NCBI GenBank assembly: GCA_011049175.1
Contig: DSCJ01000026.1
Coordinates: forward strand, 1-46,066
Direction: 5' to 3'
DNA length: 46,066 bases
From: Bacteroidota bacterium
Lineage (GTDB): Bacteria; Bacteroidota; Bacteroidia; Bacteroidales; VadinHA17
Shown: piece by piece, positions 37,418-46,066 of the stretch
How the letters are laid out: each line of letters starts with the position of its first letter
Position numbering within the stretch: the first letter of the stretch is position 1
Made by a program: the position numbers and the translations under genes
The notes under the pieces: model-generated
What the model was told of the DNA's origin: nothing
Database searches by the model: none
What the model saw: only the letters and a program-made list of their open reading frames with translations

Positions 37418-37482
37418 TAAGAAAGGTATCTGAGCATATACAATGAATTTTTATTTCTGTGCTAATTTATCCTTTTTCACTA

Positions 37483-39633
37483 ATGGAGTATATTGCCCAT
37501 AGCAGTAATGAGGAAGGAAAAGAACATCCTTTAGCAGAACATCTTACATGTGTTGCTAAAATAATGGAGAAATTTTCTCCTAATGAATATTTCCTGCAGG
37601 TATTCAGAGTTACCGGCCTGGTTCATGATATAGGAAAATATAAAAATGAATTTCAGAGATACTTAAAAGAGGGAGGGCTAAGGGGAAGCGTCCCACATGC
37701 AAGCATTGGTGCTGCTTATTGCAAAATACTTAAGCAACAGGAAGCAGCTTTTGCTATTGACGGTCATCATAAAGGAATTCCTGATTTGGCTGAACTGCAA
37801 ACCGATATTGCTTCATATAAGAACAGGGAAAAAGAATTGAAGGAAATATCAGAACGATTTCTTTCAGAAATTTCCATAGAGGAAAGTGAATTAATACTAA
37901 AAAACAGCCTTGGACTTGAAGGAACGAAACGTGAATTTATTATACGATATCTTTTCAGTGCATTAACTGATGCCGACTGGATAGATACAGAAAAACACTT
38001 TAACAGAATAAAGGCTGAAAGCAGAATTTGTAAACCTCTGGATACTTCATATTTAATTGGAAAAATTGAAAAAGAGATTGACCAAAAAGACAAAAAAAGT
38101 CCGATTAATAAGTTACGAAATGAAGTGAGGGAATATGCTGTCTCCAAAGCAGGTGGTAGTGTCGGATTTTACTCCATGAATCTTCCTACCGGATTGGGAA
38201 AAACACTTGCTTCCGTTTCATGGGCACTGCATCATGCAAGGCAGAATAATTTGAGACGTATAATAATTGTATTACCGTTTATTAGTATTATTGATCAAAC
38301 TGCCAGCGATCTTAAAAAAATTTTTGGTGAGGAGTGGGTTCTGGAACATCATTCCAGTTATACAGATAATAAGGAATCGGATGATGATATTAAGAATGAA
38401 ACGGTTCAGGGAATTGATTATACCAAAAGACTGGCTGCTGAGAATTGGGATTTCCCGGTTATTGTAACCACATCTGTGCAGTTTTTTGAATCACTTTTTT
38501 CGAATAAACCCTCAAAATGCCGAAAGCTACACAATATAGCACAATCGGTAGTGATTTTTGACGAAGTGCAAACTCTTCCAAAAAAACTTGTGATTCCCAC
38601 ATTAACAATGCTCAAGGATGTACAGGGGGTAATGAACACTTCCTTCCTGTTTTGTACAGCCACGCAGCCGGCATTTGAAAAACGCGAAGGTTTCGAAGGG
38701 ATTGATAGTATCGAACCGCTGGTAAGGAATCCGAAATCAATTTTCGAAAAATGTCGGCGTGTGGAATATATTCCGGTAAATGAATATAAGCCGGTAAAGA
38801 TGGATGAATTGGCAGAACTGGTCAGTAAACAAGATAGTTCCTGTTTGTGTATTTTTAACACGAAGGCGAAAGCTTTTTCATTTTTCGAGGTAATTCGTTC
38901 ACTTTTGGGTTACCGTAAATTCCACCTTTCAACCCGAATGTATCCTGTACACCGTAAGAGGGTTATCGGACAAATCAGAGAAGCACTGGCAGGCAATGAA
39001 AATATCATTGTGGCATCTACTCAGCTGATAGAGGCCGGTGTTGATTTCGATTTTCCTTGTGTTTTCCGTGAAATTGCTCCACTGGAATCGATAATACAAT
39101 CTGCCGGCCGGTGCAATCGCAACAATAAACTGCCTCATAAGGGAAATGTGTATCTCTTCACACTTGAGGATTCGGCAGCACCGGATAAGCAATACCGGTC
39201 TCTTGCAGAATTTGCCAACAATATGTATGCAAACCGCGAGGATTTACTGCATGAGCACGATTTTTTTACCCAGTATTATCAAAAGGCATTGCGTCTGTTT
39301 TTTGATGAAGACCGGGAAAGAATAAATGAATCCAGAAGTCAGTACAAGTTTCATGCGGTAGCAGATTGTTACCGGTTAATTGATAACAAGACAATTCCTG
39401 TATTCGTACTCTGTGATGAAAGCAAGTTGGTATTTGATTCTGTGATACATAAGCCGGTATTATCAAGAGAAGATTTTCGGGAAATGCAGCAATACTCGGT
39501 TCAGGTTTATGAAAACTTTTTAAAAGAACATATTGGGAAATTAGGTAAAGAGCCACAGGGTTTTTGGGTATGGCATGGGGAGTATAATGAGGAAACAGGG
39601 ATTACCGGTGAAATGCAAAACTATGTTATTTAA
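37483..39633 (+). CDS. cas3: CRISPR-associated nuclease-helicase Cas3 (HD + helicase)
   Basis: Cas3 is recruited by the Cascade complex to nick, unwind and degrade target DNA. The 716-residue protein joins an N-terminal HD nuclease (HPLAEH at 15-20, His48-Asp49 in LVHDIGKY, His72, His95-His96) to a superfamily 2 helicase: motif I PTGLGKT (235-241), motif II DEVQ (360-363), the CTATQ motif III and motif VI QSAGRCNRNN. All catalytic motifs appear intact. The ATG at 37483 fits the family start better than the GTG at 37459. It opens the type I-C operon, 11 bases before cas5c. Codon use is much more AT-rich than in the genes to its left. Confidence 0.95.
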   Translation: MEYIAHSSNEEGKEHPLAEHLTCVAKIMEKFSPNEYFLQVFRVTGLVHDIGKYKNEFQRYLKEGGLRGSVPHASIGAAYCKILKQQEAAFAIDGHHKGIPDLAELQTDIASYKNREKELKEISERFLSEISIEESELILKNSLGLEGTKREFIIRYLFSALTDADWIDTEKHFNRIKAESRICKPLDTSYLIGKIEKEIDQKDKKSPINKLRNEVREYAVSKAGGSVGFYSMNLPTGLGKTLASVSWALHHARQNNLRRIIIVLPFISIIDQTASDLKKIFGEEWVLEHHSSYTDNKESDDDIKNETVQGIDYTKRLAAENWDFPVIVTTSVQFFESLFSNKPSKCRKLHNIAQSVVIFDEVQTLPKKLVIPTLTMLKDVQGVMNTSFLFCTATQPAFEKREGFEGIDSIEPLVRNPKSIFEKCRRVEYIPVNEYKPVKMDELAELVSKQDSSCLCIFNTKAKAFSFFEVIRSLLGYRKFHLSTRMYPVHRKRVIGQIREALAGNENIIVASTQLIEAGVDFDFPCVFREIAPLESIIQSAGRCNRNNKLPHKGNVYLFTLEDSAAPDKQYRSLAEFANNMYANREDLLHEHDFFTQYYQKALRLFFDEDRERINESRSQYKFHAVADCYRLIDNKTIPVFVLCDESKLVFDSVIHKPVLSREDFREMQQYSVQVYENFLKEHIGKLGKEPQGFWVWHGEYNEETGITGEMQNYVI

Positions 39634-39644
39634 ACATCAAACAT

Positions 39645-40355
39645 ATGCTTGATAAAGAAATATTAAGAGTTAAAGTGGAAGGGAAATATGCATGTTTTAC
39701 ACGCCCCGATCTGAAGGTGGAGCGAATGACATATCCATGCATGACCCCTTCTGCGGCACGTGGTATTCTCGATTGCATTTTATGGAAGCCTGAGTTTCAA
39801 TGGTGGGTACATCGAATACTGGTGCTTAATCCGGTAAAATTCATTTCAGTTAGACGAAATGAATTGAGTGAAAAACAATCAAAAAATCCGATCATTATCG
39901 AGAAAAACAGGCAGCAACGTCACAGTATTATTCTGAAAGATGTTTCCTATATCATTGAAGCCTCGATATTTCAGAAAATACTGGATAACAAGAATCCGCC
40001 GAAGAAATATGTGGAAATGTTCAGACGCAGGGTTAGGAAAGGACAATGCTGGCGAAGGTCTTTTCTGGGGACGCGGGAATTTGCCGCTGAATTCAGTGAA
40101 CCAACAGGCTCTGAACAGCCCATCAGTGATACCCTGCCAATCGGAAGCATGCTGTTCGATATTTATTATAATGACAAGGGCAAGCCTTCACCACTGTTTT
40201 TTTACGATGTTAAAATTGAAAATGGGGTGCTTGAATGTCCGCAGAAGGAAAATGAAATGATGATGCAATCAACGCATAAGCGTCCGACAATTGACGAAAA
40301 TGTCAGCTATGCTATTTATGAATTCAATCAAAACGAGGAAAAGGAGGAAATCTGA
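39645..40355 (+). CDS. cas5c: Type I-C Cas5 (Cas5c/Cas5d), crRNA-processing endoribonuclease
   Basis: In type I-C systems Cas5c replaces Cas6: it cuts the pre-crRNA at the repeat hairpin and stays in Cascade. The 236-residue protein has the typical start RVKVEGKYACFTRPDLKVER, TYPCMTPSAARGILD with the conserved Tyr30, and RRRVRKGQCW...LGTREFAAEF. Known Cas5d catalytic residues are Tyr46, Lys116 and His117 (B. halodurans numbering, from memory). Here the matching site reads KKY (Lys120-Lys121), so the His seems replaced by Lys. Whether cleavage is kept is uncertain. The stop overlaps the cas8c start (TGATG), with a strong AGGAGG at 40342-40347 for cas8c. Confidence 0.92.
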   Translation: MLDKEILRVKVEGKYACFTRPDLKVERMTYPCMTPSAARGILDCILWKPEFQWWVHRILVLNPVKFISVRRNELSEKQSKNPIIIEKNRQQRHSIILKDVSYIIEASIFQKILDNKNPPKKYVEMFRRRVRKGQCWRRSFLGTREFAAEFSEPTGSEQPISDTLPIGSMLFDIYYNDKGKPSPLFFYDVKIENGVLECPQKENEMMMQSTHKRPTIDENVSYAIYEFNQNEEKEEI

Positions 40356-42184
40356 TGATAAGGGAATTAGTTTATTTTGGTGAAAAATTAAGAAAAGAAA
40401 ATGGAGATAATGAAGATTCTTTAACAAAGGAGAGAATCGATATCATTATCGTAATAAATAATGATGGAGAATTTAAAAGTCTTTATGCAACTGATAAGGA
40501 GAGTATGGTAGAGGATGTAATTCGTTGTGAAGATAAAGGACGAACTAGTAGTACTGTTCCCCGTTTGCTGGTAGATAATGCGCAGTATGTTCTTGGTTTT
40601 CCAAAAGAAAAAAAAAGGGTCAGAAGTTGTTTTACGGCTTTCCTTGATAAACTGAATCAATTTCAACAATTGGAAGAATTAACACCTGTATTAAATTTTT
40701 ATAAAAATAAAAAAGTTGGTCTTGAAAAGGCATACGATGCATTTAAAGTCAAAAGTGTTAACAAAGAAATAAACCCGGGTGGGAACATTGCTTTTGTTCT
40801 TTTGGGCGAAGAACGATTTATACATGAACATCCATCTATACTTAAGGCAATAATTAAAAAATATGAAAAAGAAGAAATAGAAAAAAAAGGCGAAGAAAAT
40901 ACAAGGTGTGCAATTTGTGGGGATACTAAATATCGGTCAAAAAATATTTCGGTTCATGGTGTAATAAAAAGGGTGCCAGATGGACAACCATCTGGATGTA
41001 CACTTGTGTCATACAATCTCAAAGCTTTTGAATCATATGATTTAAATGGAAATGATAATGCAACCATTTGTACACATTGTGTCAAGAACTATGTCACTGG
41101 TTTGAATTGGTTATTGTCGCATGGGAATTATGTGCCTGTTGATACAAAAGGAAAAAAACAGAAAGTAAAATTTAAATACTCAAACAGGAAAAATTTTGGA
41201 ACAGACACTTCAATGGTTTACTGGACCCGGGAGAATACTGAACTGGGGGAACTCGATCTGCTGGATAAACCTGATCCGGAAGCTGTTGGCAGGCTGGTCA
41301 GTTCGGTTGCTACCGGGAAGCAGGATATTTCTAGAAATTTTGAAACAAACCGCTTCTATTCCCTTACCCTTTCGGGGGCTGCTGCTCGAATTGCGGTAAG
41401 AGACTGGATTGAAATTGGGCTTGATGAGTATAAGAAGAATATTGCCAGATGGTTTGAAGACATTGCGATAAAAGCATACGGAGTAATTCAGTATGCATCC
41501 ATTTACCAGCTGGCCGATTCATGCCATAAGATGTCAAAATCATCAAAAGACAATGATCCGGTTATTTCACGTGTAGCAACTTACTTGTGGAATGCTGCAT
41601 TAAAGAGTGATTCGATTCCTCCCCTCTGGATATTGACGGCAGTCTTGAAGCGTATTCGGGTAATTGAAATGACAGACGATGGCAGAAGCAGGGACACAAT
41701 GACACCTGTAAGAGCATCTTTAATCCGACTTATTCTGAACAGAAATTTCAAATACAAAAAAGGTTATACCATGCAAAAAGAAGAACTTGACCTAGAAAAC
41801 AAAAATCCGTCGTATCTGTGCGGCAGGATTTTCGCCGTTATGGAAGGCATTCAACGTGCTGCACTTGGTAAGAATCTCAATGCCGGAATTCGTGAAAGGT
41901 TTTTTTCCGCGGCATCTACCAATCCATCACCTGCATTCGGAAGGTTGATGCGTTTGTCACAAAACCATCTTTCCAAACTAAAACAGGAAAAACCCGGAGT
42001 TGCAGTAATTCTTGACAGGGAATTACAGTATTTGTGCTCTGCTATATCTGCTTTCCCGGCCATTCTGTCGCTCGAAGAACAGGGACAGTTCGCCCTGGGT
42101 TATTATCATCAAAAGCAGTATGATTTTGACCGGGCAAAAAAGCATGAAGAATTTAAGTCAATAACAGAAAATATGGAGGACTAA
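40355..42184 (+). CDS. cas8c: Type I-C Cas8c (Csd1), large Cascade subunit
   Basis: Cas8c recognises the PAM and stabilises the R-loop. The 609-residue protein begins right at the cas5c stop, with AGGAGG seven bases upstream. The middle of the N-terminal half has a zinc-ribbon type set Cys185-xx-Cys188 and Cys239-xx-Cys242 around VPDGQPSGCTLVSYNLKAFESYDL, a Csd1 signature. The C-terminal part (about 470-609) is the helical Cas11-like region. Base composition changes abruptly near 41220: 60-base blocks before it contain 15-16 G+C, the next ones 33 and 29. This suggests a chimeric gene. A probable internal start gives Cas11c. Confidence 0.93.
   Translation: MIRELVYFGEKLRKENGDNEDSLTKERIDIIIVINNDGEFKSLYATDKESMVEDVIRCEDKGRTSSTVPRLLVDNAQYVLGFPKEKKRVRSCFTAFLDKLNQFQQLEELTPVLNFYKNKKVGLEKAYDAFKVKSVNKEINPGGNIAFVLLGEERFIHEHPSILKAIIKKYEKEEIEKKGEENTRCAICGDTKYRSKNISVHGVIKRVPDGQPSGCTLVSYNLKAFESYDLNGNDNATICTHCVKNYVTGLNWLLSHGNYVPVDTKGKKQKVKFKYSNRKNFGTDTSMVYWTRENTELGELDLLDKPDPEAVGRLVSSVATGKQDISRNFETNRFYSLTLSGAAARIAVRDWIEIGLDEYKKNIARWFEDIAIKAYGVIQYASIYQLADSCHKMSKSSKDNDPVISRVATYLWNAALKSDSIPPLWILTAVLKRIRVIEMTDDGRSRDTMTPVRASLIRLILNRNFKYKKGYTMQKEELDLENKNPSYLCGRIFAVMEGIQRAALGKNLNAGIRERFFSAASTNPSPAFGRLMRLSQNHLSKLKQEKPGVAVILDRELQYLCSAISAFPAILSLEEQGQFALGYYHQKQYDFDRAKKHEEFKSITENMED
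41771..42184 (+). CDS. cas11c: Predicted Cas11c, internal translation product of cas8c
   Basis: In studied type I-C systems the small subunit Cas11c is made from an internal start near the 3' end of cas8c. Here an in-frame ATG at 41771 (Met473 of Cas8c) has AAAAAAGG ending seven bases before it and opens a 137-residue product, close to the known size. It begins just before LDLENKNPSYLCGRIFAVMEG, the conserved start of the helical small-subunit region. This is inferred from position and Shine-Dalgarno-like sequence; there is no direct proof. Confidence 0.6.
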   Translation: MQKEELDLENKNPSYLCGRIFAVMEGIQRAALGKNLNAGIRERFFSAASTNPSPAFGRLMRLSQNHLSKLKQEKPGVAVILDRELQYLCSAISAFPAILSLEEQGQFALGYYHQKQYDFDRAKKHEEFKSITENMED

Positions 42185-42187
42185 AAA

Positions 42188-43057
42188 ATGGAAAATAATG
42201 CAATACGGAACAGGTACGATTTCGTCTTTCTGTTTGATGTAAAAGACGGTAATCCCAATGGTGATCCCGACCAGGCAAATCTGCCCAGAGTTGATGCAGA
42301 AAATCAGGAAGGTTTGGTTACAGATGTGTGTATAAAAAGAAAGGTCAGGAACTATGTTTATTTAAAACACAAAGGAGAAGTCCCGTATGATATATTTATC
42401 AAACAGGGGAACATTTTAGGGAAAATTATTGACGAGACTAAAAAACAGGAGGATAAACATATTGAGAAAACTCAGCAGAAGCTTAACGAATTGTATTATG
42501 ATATCAGAACATTCGGCGCTGTTTTAAGCATTGGCAAAGAGGGTGGAGCCGGCACCATCCGTGGACCTGTACAATTTACTTTTGCACGTTCCCTTGATAG
42601 AATATATCAGGCTGAACATTCCATAACCCGGCTCTGTGTTGCAACGGAAGAAGAAGCAAAACGGCAGGAGGCACGTGAACATGCATCTACCTTTGGAAGA
42701 AAAGCAACAGTTCCTTATGCCCTCTATCGAATGCATGGCTTTATCTCTGCCGTCGATGCCATAAAAACTGGTTTCTCAGAGACTGACCTTCGACTGCTAT
42801 GGGAAGCATTGAAAAATGCTTTTGAGCACGACAGATCTGCAGCGCGTGGTGAGATGAATTACAGGAAACTTTTTGTATTTAAACATGATAGCCATCTGGG
42901 CTCAGCGCGTTCCGGTCAATTGTTTGACCTTATTCAGATCAAAAAGAAGGTGGAGCTTCCCAGGAAATGGGAAGATTATTCAGTTTCATCCAGTGCTGAG
43001 ATTACCGGGAAGGTTCCCCTTGGCGTTCAATTCATTGATGGAGATACTATTGGGTAA
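42188..43057 (+). CDS. cas7c: Type I-C Cas7 (Csd2), crRNA-binding backbone of Cascade
   Basis: Several Cas7 copies wrap the crRNA in Cascade. The 289-residue protein has the family start DFVFLFDVKDGNPNGDPDQA, PRVDAENQEGLVTDVCIKRKVRNYV, and a thumb/palm region with GPVQFTFARSLDRI and ASTFGRKATVPYALYRMHGFISA. The length is normal, so the downstream RAYT gene has not cut it. A good GGAGG (42175-42179) precedes the ATG by eight bases, three bases after cas8c ends. A small stem (AATCC/GGATT, 43057-43073) follows its stop. Confidence 0.95.
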   Translation: MENNAIRNRYDFVFLFDVKDGNPNGDPDQANLPRVDAENQEGLVTDVCIKRKVRNYVYLKHKGEVPYDIFIKQGNILGKIIDETKKQEDKHIEKTQQKLNELYYDIRTFGAVLSIGKEGGAGTIRGPVQFTFARSLDRIYQAEHSITRLCVATEEEAKRQEAREHASTFGRKATVPYALYRMHGFISAVDAIKTGFSETDLRLLWEALKNAFEHDRSAARGEMNYRKLFVFKHDSHLGSARSGQLFDLIQIKKKVELPRKWEDYSVSSSAEITGKVPLGVQFIDGDTIG

Positions 43058-43096
43058 ATCCGGGCAAAGGATTGTTCCAATATAAGCGTGGTAATA

Positions 43097-43717
43097 ATGT
43101 TTTTCGAGCCAAACCATTTATACCACATTTACAATCAAGGGAACAACAGGAATATGGTATTTTTTTGCAGAGATCATTACTTGTTTTTTAAAAGGAAACT
43201 TAAAAGGTATATTTTACCATTTGCCGATATTCTTGCCTGGTGCCTTATGCCTAACCACTTTCATTTGATGATTCATGTGAATAATGTGGAAGTTGATAAG
43301 AAATTGATTATTAATAAGTCCGGGCGCGACTTGAAGTCGCACCCGGACTTTAAACGAATTACCTTAAACCAATCCATTGGAATTATGCTGGCTTCGTATA
43401 CCCGGGCAATTAATAAACAAAGGAATCGGAGCGGTTCATTATTCCGAAAAGAAACCAAAGCAGTTTGCCTTTCCAGGTCTGACGGAATATCTCCTGCCTG
43501 GTATACCATACAGGGGATAACCAGCATTAATGTTCCTGATAATTTACATGAGTATCCAAATATATGCTACAGGTATATCTTATACAACCCGGTTCATGCC
43601 GGATTAGTTGGGGATGCAATGGATTGGGAATTTTCTTCCTTTAGAGAAATTGTGAAATCATGTAATGATAACCTCATTAGTACGGAAAGAATAATATACT
43701 ATGGACTTGAAATGTGA
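43097..43717 (+). CDS. RAYT-like Y1 HUH transposase (REP-associated tyrosine transposase) in the cas operon
   Basis: This 206-residue protein belongs to the IS200-like Y1 transposase/RAYT family: it starts NHLYHIYNQGNNR, has the HUH motif His54-Phe-His56 in CLMPNHFHLMIH, a candidate catalytic Tyr101 in LASYTRAINKQRNRSGSLFRKE, and the late YRYILYNPVHAGLV typical of RAYTs. These enzymes cut and rejoin single-stranded DNA at hairpins. No IS ends or target duplication are evident. It is 39 bases after cas7c, and its TGA overlaps the cas4 ATG (TGATG), so it reads as a built-in operon member. Residues 74-85 are encoded by a 35-base palindrome. The ATG at 43097 is preferred to a GTG at 43088. It is AT-rich like the 5' part of cas8c. 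Confidence 0.88.
   Translation: MFFEPNHLYHIYNQGNNRNMVFFCRDHYLFFKRKLKRYILPFADILAWCLMPNHFHLMIHVNNVEVDKKLIINKSGRDLKSHPDFKRITLNQSIGIMLASYTRAINKQRNRSGSLFRKETKAVCLSRSDGISPAWYTIQGITSINVPDNLHEYPNICYRYILYNPVHAGLVGDAMDWEFSSFREIVKSCNDNLISTERIIYYGLEM
43316..43350. repeat. Palindrome (REP-like) inside the RAYT coding sequence
   Basis: A 35-base palindrome centred on G43333 pairs 16 of 17 positions; the one mismatch is C43325 with A43341. It starts AAGTCCGGG and ends CCCGGACTT, with GCGACTT-G-AAGTCGC in the middle. It keeps the reading frame (KSGRDLKSHPDF). It is GC-rich within an AT-rich gene and looks like an inserted repeat unit. Confidence 0.85.
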
Positions 43718-44424
43718 TGGAAATAAAAAAAACAGGTAACCAGAAAAATACCTTTTCTGAGGATGAAATGTTAATGCTTTCAGGCATTCAGCATTATGCA
43801 TTTTGCCCGAGGCAATGGGCATTGATTCACATAGAACAAAAGTGGGTTGAAAATGTGTTGACTGTTGAGGGGCAATATATGCATGAAAAGGTAGAGGATC
43901 CCTTTTTTACTGAAAGCCGTGGAGATTTTGATATTATCCGATCTCTTTCGTTGGTTTCGAAAAATCTGGGCTTATATGGCAAAGCCGATGTAATTGAGTT
44001 CATTAAGACGGGTAAGAGCGAAGTGAATTCAATAATCCTTCCCGGGAAAGCTGGTCGTTGGAAACCGTATCCTGTAGAATATAAACGGGGTAAGCCCAAA
44101 CCCGATGCATGCGATGAAGTGCAGCTCTGTGCCCAGGCCATGTGTTTGGAAGAAATGTATCACATCAGGCTACAAAAAGGTTTTATTTATTATGGAAAAA
44201 CCCGGCACAGGCACGAGGTAATTTTTAGCGAAAATCTTCGGAAACTGGTAGCGCAGTACTCCGTTGAAATGCACAGATTGTTTCATGAAGGAATTACCCC
44301 ACCACCAGAGCCAAAGGCCGGTTGCAGATCGTGCTCGCTTCTTGATATATGTCTTCCGGAACCTTTGGCAGAAGGAATGAATGCACAGAAGTACAATGAG
44401 AGCGTGCTGAGTGCGGATATTTAG
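43717..44424 (+). CDS. cas4: Cas4 exonuclease, spacer acquisition
   Basis: Cas4 trims prespacers and checks the PAM side during adaptation. The 235-residue protein has the RecB-type nuclease residues Asp91 (GKADVIEF), Glu121 and Lys123 (PVEYKRGKP), and the iron-sulfur cluster cysteines Cys30 (YAFCPRQW) and Cys203, Cys206, Cys212 (CRSCSLLDIC). All are in place. Its ATG at 43717 overlaps the RAYT stop; a GTG three bases earlier is possible. cas1 follows nine bases later, in the usual I-C order. Confidence 0.95.
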   Translation: MEIKKTGNQKNTFSEDEMLMLSGIQHYAFCPRQWALIHIEQKWVENVLTVEGQYMHEKVEDPFFTESRGDFDIIRSLSLVSKNLGLYGKADVIEFIKTGKSEVNSIILPGKAGRWKPYPVEYKRGKPKPDACDEVQLCAQAMCLEEMYHIRLQKGFIYYGKTRHRHEVIFSENLRKLVAQYSVEMHRLFHEGITPPPEPKAGCRSCSLLDICLPEPLAEGMNAQKYNESVLSADI

Positions 44425-44433
44425 ATTGCTGTC

Positions 44434-45465
44434 ATGAGAAAGCTGCTGAACACTCTTTATATTACTTCGCCCGATGCTTATCTGGGAAGGGATGGTGAAA
44501 ACATTGTGGTACGTGTGGCCGAACAGGAAAAGTTCAGAATACCGGTTCACAACATCGAAGGCATTGTATGTTTCGGTTATCCCGGCGCCAGCCCGGCCCT
44601 GATGGGTTTATGCGCAGAAAGGAATGTGGGCCTCAGTTTTTTGACTGAGCACGGCAGATTCTGGGGACGGTTTTCCGGTCCTGTAAGAGGCAATGTGCTT
44701 CTCAGGAGGCGTCAGTACCGGTTGGCCGATGACGGGAATGTGAAATTGAAACTGAGCAAAGTATTCATTGCAGCGAAAATTGCAAACTGCCGGAATGTAA
44801 TCCGGCGTGCCATGCGTGACCATGGCCAGCGACAGGACCTTTCATTGCTTGAGGATGTTGTAAAACAACTGTCTGTGAGACAGAAACAGGCGCTGAAGGC
44901 TTCCGATTTACAAATACTCAGGGGAATCGAGGGGGATGCTGCCAATGCCTATTTTGGGGTATTCAATCATTTGATCGTTGCGCAGAAGAATGAGTTTAGG
45001 ATGAACGGGCGGACACGGCGCCCACCCAGAGATGCCGTGAATGCATTGCTCTCATTTATGTATGCCTTGCTGGCACATGAGGTTCAATCGGCTCTTGAAA
45101 CGGTGGGACTTGATCCCTATGTTGGATTTTTGCATACTGACCGTCCCGGTCGCCCCAGTTTAGCGCTTGATTTAATGGAAGAATTCAGGCCCTATCTGGC
45201 CGACCGGCTGGTATTGACATTGATTAACCGAAGGCAGGTGAGTGGGAAAGGTTTTATGAGCCAGACTGAATTCGGAATTCTGATGAATGATGAAACGCGC
45301 AAAGCAGTGCTTGAGTCCTGGCAGAAAAGGAAACAGGAAGAGATTCAGCATCCGTTTTTACAGGAAACCGTACCGGTGGGTTTACTACCTTATGCCCAGG
45401 CATTGTTGTTTTCACGATTTATTCGGGGTGATCTGGAAACGTATCCGGTGTTTGTAATGAAATAA
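44434..45465 (+). CDS. cas1: Cas1 integrase, type I-C
   Basis: Cas1 joins new spacers to the leader end of the array together with Cas2. The 343-residue protein shows an N-terminal beta domain (1-85) and a helical catalytic domain with the metal ligands Glu166 (RGIEGDAAN), His234 (GFLHTDRPGRPSLALD) and Glu249 or Glu250 (LMEEFRP). Length matches Cas1c. The composition is higher in GC than in cas3 or cas8c, suggesting a mosaic locus. cas2 starts seven bases later. Confidence 0.96.
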   Translation: MRKLLNTLYITSPDAYLGRDGENIVVRVAEQEKFRIPVHNIEGIVCFGYPGASPALMGLCAERNVGLSFLTEHGRFWGRFSGPVRGNVLLRRRQYRLADDGNVKLKLSKVFIAAKIANCRNVIRRAMRDHGQRQDLSLLEDVVKQLSVRQKQALKASDLQILRGIEGDAANAYFGVFNHLIVAQKNEFRMNGRTRRPPRDAVNALLSFMYALLAHEVQSALETVGLDPYVGFLHTDRPGRPSLALDLMEEFRPYLADRLVLTLINRRQVSGKGFMSQTEFGILMNDETRKAVLESWQKRKQEEIQHPFLQETVPVGLLPYAQALLFSRFIRGDLETYPVFVMK

Positions 45466-45472
45466 ATATATT

Positions 45473-45766
45473 ATGATGGTTCTGGTAACATACGATGTTG
45501 AAACTGTCACTGCCAGGGGAAGGAAAAGGTTGCGGAGGGTGGCGAAAGAATGTACCAATTTCGGGCAGCGTGTGCAGAACTCCGTGTTTGAATGTGTGAT
45601 AGATCCTGCTCAGATGGCGGAGTTAAAGCACAGGCTGGAAAACATCATTGACATAAAGAAGGACAGTTTACGGTTTTACTATTTGGGGAACCAATGGAAA
45701 AGAAGAGTGGAGCATTTGGGAACGAAACCAACTTATAACCCGGAAAGTGACACACTGCTTGTTTAA
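45473..45766 (+). CDS. cas2: Cas2, spacer acquisition
   Basis: Cas2 forms the dimer core of the Cas1-Cas2 integrase. The 97-residue protein has a ferredoxin-like fold beginning MVLVTYDVET (Asp8), with GRKRLRRVAKECTNFGQRVQNSVFEC and a C-terminus typical of I-C Cas2. The start may be 45473 or the next codon at 45476. It is the last cas gene and lies 171 bases before the array. Confidence 0.96.
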   Translation: MMVLVTYDVETVTARGRKRLRRVAKECTNFGQRVQNSVFECVIDPAQMAELKHRLENIIDIKKDSLRFYYLGNQWKRRVEHLGTKPTYNPESDTLLV

Positions 45767-45937: not shown

Positions 45938-46066
45938 GTCGCGCCCCTCGCGGGCGCGTGGATTGAAACACAGCTGGGCTCATTCCGCTTTTATGGAGAT
46001 TGGGTCGCGCCCCTCGCGGGCGCGTGGATTGAAACGCATGAGTGATGATCAGATACTACTCAAGCC
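45938..46066 (+). CRISPR. Type I-C CRISPR array (start only)
   Basis: Two identical 32-base repeats lie at 45938-45969 and 46004-46035; they begin GTCGCGCCC and end GTGGATTGAAAC, the type I-C pattern. Bases 3-9 (CGCGCCC) and 15-21 (GGGCGCG) form a 7-bp hairpin with a 5-base loop, and the part after it gives the 5' tag of the crRNA. Spacer 1 is 34 bases (45970-46003); spacer 2 (from 46036) is cut by the window end after 31 bases. The array continues outside. The leader-proximal position next to cas2 means these are the newest spacers. Confidence 0.97.

Follow-up and report, generated by a model that had tools for sequence, protein, structure and literature searches.

RAYT genes, which encode REP-associated tyrosine transposases (TnpA_REP), recur in the CRISPR operons of Bacteroidales, and the slot in which they are found follows the Cas1 lineage, the RAYT that occupies it being exchanged. 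The gene studied here belongs to the window, that is, the whole stretch of 46,066 nucleotides that was analyzed, where it lies between cas7c and cas4 of a type I-C operon. Cas-linked relatives of this gene are placed mainly between cas9 and cas1 of type II-C operons.

The RAYT Gene of the Type I-C Operon

The complete type I-C operon of the window (37459-45766) consists of cas3, cas5c, cas8c, cas7c, RAYT, cas4, cas1, and cas2, and every cas gene matched its own family in the profile search. The features are the following:

37459-39633, + strand: cas3 (TIGR01587, E 1.1e-42, plus Cas3 HD hits)
39645-40355, + strand: cas5c (TIGR01876, E 6.4e-44)
40355-42184, + strand: cas8c (csd1; TIGR01863, E 1.7e-98)
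42188-43057, + strand: cas7c (csd2; TIGR02589, E 1.1e-90)
43097-43717, + strand: RAYT (TnpA_REP) gene, alternative start GTG at 43088
43253-43264, + strand: HUH motif NHFH (H57 and H59 invariant in alignment A1)
43316-43350, + strand: in-frame REP-like palindrome (17-bp arms, one mismatch, 1-nt loop)
43574-43591, + strand: YILYNP, the TnpA_REP tyrosine motif (Y163 invariant in A1; motif as defined in Table 1 of PMC6006769)
43714-44424, + strand: cas4 (TIGR00372, E 4.4e-36), start overlapping the RAYT stop
44434-45465, + strand: cas1 (type I-C; TIGR03640, E 6.2e-147)
45473-45766, + strand: cas2 (TIGR01573, E 4.6e-21)
45938-46035, + strand: first two CRISPR repeats of 32 nt each, the only two in the contig, followed by the contig end

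The seven cas genes and the array place the locus in type I-C CRISPR-Cas, for which this gene order and a 32-nt repeat are usual; the operon differs by the extra RAYT between cas7c and cas4. The first-pass annotation, which had recognized an intact RAYT at this position, was correct. Read from its GTG, the RAYT ORF covers 43088-43717, and the ATG at 43097, which fits the alignment with relatives better, is the likely start. From this ATG, the distance to the cas7c stop is 39 bases, and the RAYT TGA (43715-43717) overlaps a cas4 ATG at 43717 (TGATG), both as originally described. The RAYT is single copy in its genome. A second CRISPR operon of the same genome, of type II-C (L093, on G000:C69), has overlapping cas9 and cas1 genes and no RAYT. 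The arms GTCGC-CCC are shared by the CRISPR repeat of the window (45938-46035) and the palindrome of the RAYT (43316-43350), perhaps by chance between GC-rich palindromes.

Identity and Subclass of the RAYT

The window gene is a RAYT. It matched the NCBIfam model REP_Tyr_transpos (NF047646) with E 1.6e-10 and 41 bits, below the curated cut-off of 80, under which the tested relatives also remain with scores of 44-59; the Pfam search at E 0.001 gave no match. The sole PDB match of the RAYT profile (E up to 0.1) was 4er8 (E 2e-4), the structure of TnpArep, itself a REP-associated tyrosine transposase, in complex with a REP hairpin. The same structure was the top fold match (E 5.7e-7, TMq 0.54, TMt 0.67) of the AlphaFold2 model of the protein (mean pLDDT 83.5). 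The HUH motif and the single catalytic Tyr (Y1) that define TnpA_REP are both kept, as NHFH and YILYNP, in agreement with the first description of the gene.

Between these motifs, the 35-bp palindrome, which the first-pass annotation had not mentioned, is inserted in frame. In the sections covered of Quentin et al. (2018, PMC6006769), a REP inserted in frame between the HUH and Tyr motifs is attributed to subclass 2.4 of TnpA_REP (Bertels group 4). The window RAYT shares with this subclass the NHFH motif and the variable in-frame insertion with its REP, and the likeness extends to the flanking REPs of many relatives, the low copy number, and the occurrence in Bacteroidetes. However, the motifs WQ and YIxNNP listed there for subclass 2.4 are replaced in the window RAYT by F-R at the W position and by YILYNP. 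Its relatives have F-R/Q and mostly YIHQNP or YIHNNP, which is nearer to the consensus of subclass 2.6. The in-frame REP fits subclass 2.4, but the motif details do not match it strictly. That paper uses the word CRISPR 0 times and does not place RAYTs in cas operons.

RAYTs in Type II-C Operons

The same-family search covered 117 genomes, 11 of which had a RAYT match, and besides the window one match was found in a type II-C operon with the order cas9-RAYT-cas1-cas2 (L021). In the same-order search, 92 of 393 genomes were positive at E<=1e-15; RAYT fragments shorter than 150 aa did not enter the counts. The closest set is formed by 53 genes with E<1e-50, and the first match below this set has 9e-38. 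At least 29 of these 53 genes, distributed in 28 loci, are located in or beside cas operons, namely those of the window and of 27 II-C loci. This is a lower bound, because the contig ends no more than 500 bp away from at least four genes in the unlinked group of 24 (L068, L069, L078, and L079). Directly upstream of cas1, with no other recognized gene between them, is where the RAYT is found at 25 of the 27 II-C loci. The exceptions are L081, whose contig ends after cas9 and the RAYT, and L070, where the RAYT is upstream of cas9.

A scan of named genomes gave at least 80 loci, among which 10 of the 34 closest RAYTs versus none of the 46 more distant ones were cas-linked (p 8e-5). Five of the ten linked loci are the same as in the order search, and the new ones are L164 (Perlabentimonas gracilis M08), L190, L192, L196, and L197 (Marinilabilia salmonicolor MSL42, with a shortened RAYT). 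The Cas1 search of the same genomes showed, among the matches listed (E 4.7e-37 and weaker), a RAYT beside 17 of 41 cas1 genes of the II-C kind, 13 being members of the window subfamily and four of a divergent subfamily (L101, L102, L122, and L126). Four of these 41 loci have no recognized cas9; of the 37 II-C operons picked through cas1 that do have one, 20 carry no RAYT, again among the matches listed.

Overlaps of 4 nt, or of stop and start codons, connect the RAYT with cas4 (the window and L252) or with cas1 (L096, L147, and L148). RAYT fragments are found near an intact RAYT in the II-C operons L190 (6843-7268), L095 (3424-3606), and L038 (2669-2788), as if an old occupant had decayed and a new one had come in.

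RAYTs and Other Genes in Class 1 Operons

Among 17 I-C loci (the window, L105-L118, L305, and L306), only the window has a RAYT. The original claim that the gene is built into the operon is partly supported: RAYTs recur in the cas operons of the order, but a fixed place in type I-C as such is not supported, the RAYT being no conserved cas gene of that type. Relatives with a clean empty site had been named beforehand as evidence against the claim, and for type I-C such a site exists in L106, where the cas7c-cas4 junction is empty (19 bp).

Nothing was recognized at this junction in 9 of the 16 other I-C loci. RhuM genes occupy it on the operon's strand in L110, L112, L115, and L116, and an IS200-type Y1 transposase in L105. 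In L305, the nearest family relative, with a cas7c 80% identical, a YhcG nuclease is found there, and in L108 the junction holds HicA, accompanied by a second small ORF in the opposite orientation. A Bro-N gene is located at the same kind of boundary between effector and adaptation genes in L131.

RAYTs were found in at least 4 of 42 class 1 loci with a Cas1 like that of the I-B operon L104 (six RAYT genes), all oriented with the operon. The order in L104 is cas6-RAYT-cas8-cas7-cas5-cas3-RAYT-cas4-cas1-cas2, L103 has cas6-RAYT-cas8, L281 carries a RAYT on each side of cas6, and in L252 the RAYT overlaps cas4 by 4 nt; the cas8 label in these loci is given by position, with no curated hit. The sample comes from 45 listed class 1 Cas1 rows with E 2.8e-94 to 8.8e-86, of which 42 (L103, L104, and 40 more) were examined and three left out, and the count is a lower bound because several stretches are short (L261, L263, L279, L280, and L283). 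The 49 rows listed at E 5.6e-77 to 2.1e-39 lie outside it.

Single-domain Y1 transposases of the IS200 type are also seen on the operon's strand in I-C and I-B cas operons, namely, L105 (4835-5269), L247 (7330-7791), L253 (5807-6274), L262 (9655-10116), and L277 (8327-8800). The one in L105 carries the YxxxQxxHH signature given for subclass 1.2. Other single-gene passengers of I-B-like operons (L247, L250, L262, and L277) are PDDEXK_3, 23S rRNA IVP, AbiEii, and SWIM proteins, and ORFs are similarly placed in L255, L263, L264, and L276.

Chance, Orientation, and Constraint

A chance landing in the operon, formerly regarded as the main alternative, is rejected: throughout the order, RAYTs recur in CRISPR operons, where they share the orientation of the cas genes, usually directly precede the adaptation genes, and are under constraint. 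Even with a generous eight cas junctions per 3000 genes, 29 of 53 gives p ~1e-60, and 10 of 34 in the named-genome set gives p ~1e-18. These values assume independence, which is weakened by shared descent, and the tree counts are the better test. In the neighborhood of the unlinked RAYTs, no Pfam family appears in more than two of the 67 proteins scanned (proteins of 100 aa or more at loci from L065 onward, less 3 of 70). The data suggest a real but unexplained link between RAYTs and CRISPR systems.

The downstream gene is on the same strand in all 32 cas-linked rows versus 32 of the 53 remaining ones (p 1e-5), the latter including L081 and L146, which are actually cas-linked and absent from the 32. 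In all, 57 rows had been classed as unlinked, at least these two wrongly. The respective numbers for the upstream gene are 29 of 31 versus 30 of 50, both linked exceptions being short ORFs in gaps. The strand counts, like the palindrome and flanking-REP counts below, leave out the divergent subfamily and some cut genes. The same-strand pattern would also be expected from selection against reversed insertions in an operon.

The dN/dS ratio is 0.11-0.19 in seven of nine RAYT pairs; synonymous change is saturated in two pairs, and dS is under 1 only in the three pairs within genome G328. All 44 linked genes retain HUH, and 41 of them also YxxxNP. The exceptions are L190 with YIHQNL, L197, in which the shortened gene has no such motif, and L122 (5404-6093), a RAYT in the cas9/cas1 slot with Phe at the catalytic Tyr.

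Longer arrays in the presence of a RAYT were considered and not found, the median being 24.5 with and 17 without (p 0.92; 10 rows with versus 11 without). The former were 15 rows less L190, L197, L144, and L147, with few repeats or with the array at the end of the contig or of the stretch, and less a duplicate of the L156 locus, and the latter 13 less L131 and L136; two loci with divergent RAYTs were taken as RAYT bearing, and the second array of L292, with 6 repeats, did not enter the count.

Phylogeny of RAYTs and the Slot on the Cas1 Tree

One clade of the RAYT tree, with 58 rows, intermingles 30 that are cas-linked with 28 that are not (L070 and L081 are labeled as cas-linked, L103 and L104 of the I-B operons as solo and outside the clade). 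Linkage needs 21 changes versus 24.7 after shuffling, with 38 and 44 of 500 shuffles as low, and is hardly clustered. A single clade of cas-linked RAYTs, as once expected, is rejected, at least 10 of the 21 changes being forced by the starred branches. L144 and L145, both II-C-linked, form a group with the RAYT of the window (support 99/92), and the I-C copy therefore most likely came from the II-C-linked lineage.

The presence of a RAYT on the Cas1 tree shows 7 changes versus 16.3 shuffled, and when only the 37 loci picked through cas1 are considered, 5 versus 12.6, with 0 of 500 shuffles as low in both cases; this clustering still includes host kinship. In detail, a supported Cas1 clade (98/95) has a RAYT in 18 of 19 loci, three of them of the divergent subfamily and nested among the others. 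In the cas1-picked sample, the same clade, which was chosen after the tree was seen, has RAYTs in 11 of 12 loci versus 6 of 25 elsewhere (p 2e-4). The subfamily in the slot has switched at least three times, as forced on the Cas1 tree. The slot follows the Cas1 lineage, and the RAYT in it is exchanged.

Co-inheritance of the RAYT with Cas1 or Cas9 was not recovered, the distances of 25 II-C loci showing no correlation (r 0.08, p 0.27 for Cas1; r -0.01, p 0.53 for Cas9). This is not special to the RAYT, because there is no correlation between Cas1 and Cas9 themselves (r 0.10, p 0.17). Judged from these distances, RAYT, Cas1, and Cas9 of II-C loci all look reshuffled.

Two II-C operons whose cas9 and cas1 genes are distantly related are present on the single contig of G328; the nucleotide identity of their RAYTs is 86-89% and is confined to 635 bp of the gene. 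In one operon the RAYT is a tandem pair, 92.7% identical over 715 bp including the REP, and the other copy seems to be without its usual start. Twelve REP sites of this RAYT type are present in the genome (control 0). The two loci, L087 and L099 on G328:C1, at about 1.21 and 1.125 Mb, are a case of apparent tnpA_REP gene movement. As to vehicles, no match was found in 50,697 phage records, and 5 of 72,556 plasmid records gave only weak matches (26-29%), so neither spread by phage nor spread by plasmid was retained.

REP Palindromes

The genome scan with the core of the window palindrome (up to three mismatches) detected five sites including its own, and the reversed-pattern control none; four REP-like sites besides that of the RAYT point only weakly to a cognate REP. 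An internal palindrome (score of 12 or more) is present in 29 of 32 cas-linked RAYTs versus 25 of 53 others (p 5e-5), which take in more distant members. Upstream palindromes occur in 13 of 32 linked and 21 of 53 other RAYTs, downstream ones in 13 of 32 and 19 of 53, and palindromes on both flanks in 8 of 32 and 14 of 53; the control gave 9 of 598 windows. From the flanking and internal counts, it follows that at some loci, linked or unlinked, the unit is a REP-RAYT-REP cassette. The palindrome scan of the flanks of the window RAYT gave no recognizable REP, and of the RAYT-less gaps only some hold a palindrome.

At linked loci, 15 of 26 flanking REPs match the internal REP of the resident RAYT and 11 do not. 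The latter may have been left behind by earlier occupants or inserted in trans. Seven of the 11 match the internal REP of another RAYT at 0.9 or more, and in the control 51 of 69 internal REPs do the same. Because internal REPs match likewise, a foreign flanking match names no former occupant, and naming former occupants from REP types is thereby weakened. The CRISPR repeat is also unlikely to be the REP of the RAYT: the II-C repeats appear different from the REPs, and the arms shared by the I-C repeat of the window and its REP are of a kind that GC-rich palindromes may have in common.

Discussion

The reading that we favor, tentatively and at a little under an even chance, is that a REP-RAYT cassette has repeatedly occupied an inherited slot at the effector/adaptation boundary. 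The unit would be the HUH/Tyr TnpA_REP enzyme, whose gene carries its own REP palindrome, together with the REPs that lie beside it in many relatives. Every linked RAYT observed has the orientation of its operon and lies at a boundary between functional blocks, mainly the effector/adaptation boundary, that is, cas9/cas1 in II-C, cas7c/cas4 in the I-C operon of the window, and cas3/cas4 in I-B. The enzyme would nick and rejoin single-stranded REP hairpins, cassettes would copy or recombine into a slot already carrying REPs, and insertions on the operon's strand would survive because cas1-cas2 stay expressed. The copy of the window would descend from the II-C-linked lineage and would have moved into the I-C operon. 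The cassette, being harmless, may persist as a passenger of CRISPR operons that are transferred horizontally, with no role in immunity. Counting against this reading, the clustering on the Cas1 tree and the dN/dS values fit a selected immune role equally well, 20 of the 37 cas1-picked II-C operons have no RAYT, the window has no recognizable flanking REP, and the flanking REPs of foreign type could have come in trans. The absent correlation between Cas1 and Cas9 and the control on foreign-type REPs each make this reading slightly less probable. In addition, no mobility of the tnpA_REP gene is known according to PMC8266576, in which RAYTs are called tamed transposases and a host benefit is inferred.

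It is possible, although rather doubtful, that the RAYT genuinely serves CRISPR adaptation as an accessory. Bacteroidales would then use a tamed HUH transposase in their II-C and I-B operons, and here in I-C, where the protein, made with cas4-cas1-cas2 or cas1-cas2, would nick or process single-stranded hairpins (those at forks, in ssDNA of phages or plasmids, or of the repeat), thereby supplying or trimming prespacers. The slot would belong to the Cas1 lineage and the RAYTs would be interchangeable; their exchange is accounted for because different RAYTs can fill the job, and the apparent movement of tnpA_REP between CRISPR operons would be part of the same picture. The specific link with cas operons, always on the operon's strand, argues for such a role, as do the presence that tracks the Cas1 lineage despite replacement by a different subfamily, the conserved HUH and YxxxNP motifs under purifying selection, the overlaps with cas4 and cas1, and the same boundary in II-C, I-C, and I-B. 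On the contrary, 28 of the 58 members of the RAYT clade are unlinked, array lengths show no difference with and without the gene, RAYT distances do not covary with those of Cas1, linked RAYTs have motif defects (L122, L197, and L190), some I-B RAYTs adjoin cas6 or cas8 instead of adaptation genes, and unrelated genes occupy the same boundaries. A part of the RAYT in spacer acquisition is possible, with no support from array length.

These unrelated genes (RhuM, IS200-type Y1, YhcG, HicA, and Bro-N) are what would be expected if the boundary were simply a permissive spot, where any single gene on the operon's strand is tolerated between the effector and adaptation blocks and RAYTs are merely the commonest. 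We consider this improbable, as it leaves unexplained both the clustering on the Cas1 tree and the placement there of 29 of the 53 genes of one RAYT subfamily, for which no second favored neighborhood was found. That the palindrome is the selected part, its hairpins in the operon mRNA setting how much cas1-cas2 is made compared with the effector, would agree with the excess of internal palindromes in linked RAYTs over a comparison set that includes more distant members, but is very hard to maintain when the protein itself is constrained, REPs alone would do without a gene of 200 codons, and only some RAYT-less gaps hold a palindrome.

In the literature, as far as titles and the beginnings of abstracts extend, no description of RAYTs in cas operons was found; most subscription papers and all preprints are outside this scope. 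Nor was the pattern found in the parts covered of PMC6452270, PMC5513706, PMC4624362, PMC4607530, and PMC7606416. The nearest record is a "Y1 Tpase" among putative CRISPR auxiliary genes in the legend of Fig. 6D of PMC10910872 (2023). It is likewise a Y1 HUH enzyme linked to CRISPR loci, but it is a legend label, and the parts covered of that paper give no subtype, position, or distinction between RAYT and IS200 type. As regards the II-C boundary, according to the parts covered of the respective papers, RhuM genes lie between cas1 and cas9 in B. fragilis (PMC5704556), passengers at the same boundary as RAYTs but of an unrelated protein family; cas9 and cas1 of R. anatipestifer are separated by 12 bp (PMC5006608); and IS elements occur in a II-C locus (PMC10309648).

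The recurrent place in CRISPR operons gives RAYTs a functional neighborhood. Two questions become testable, namely, by what means REP-RAYT cassettes move and whether RAYTs take part in acquiring spacers. The same placement also singles out the junction of the effector and adaptation blocks as a site at which operons exchange parts.
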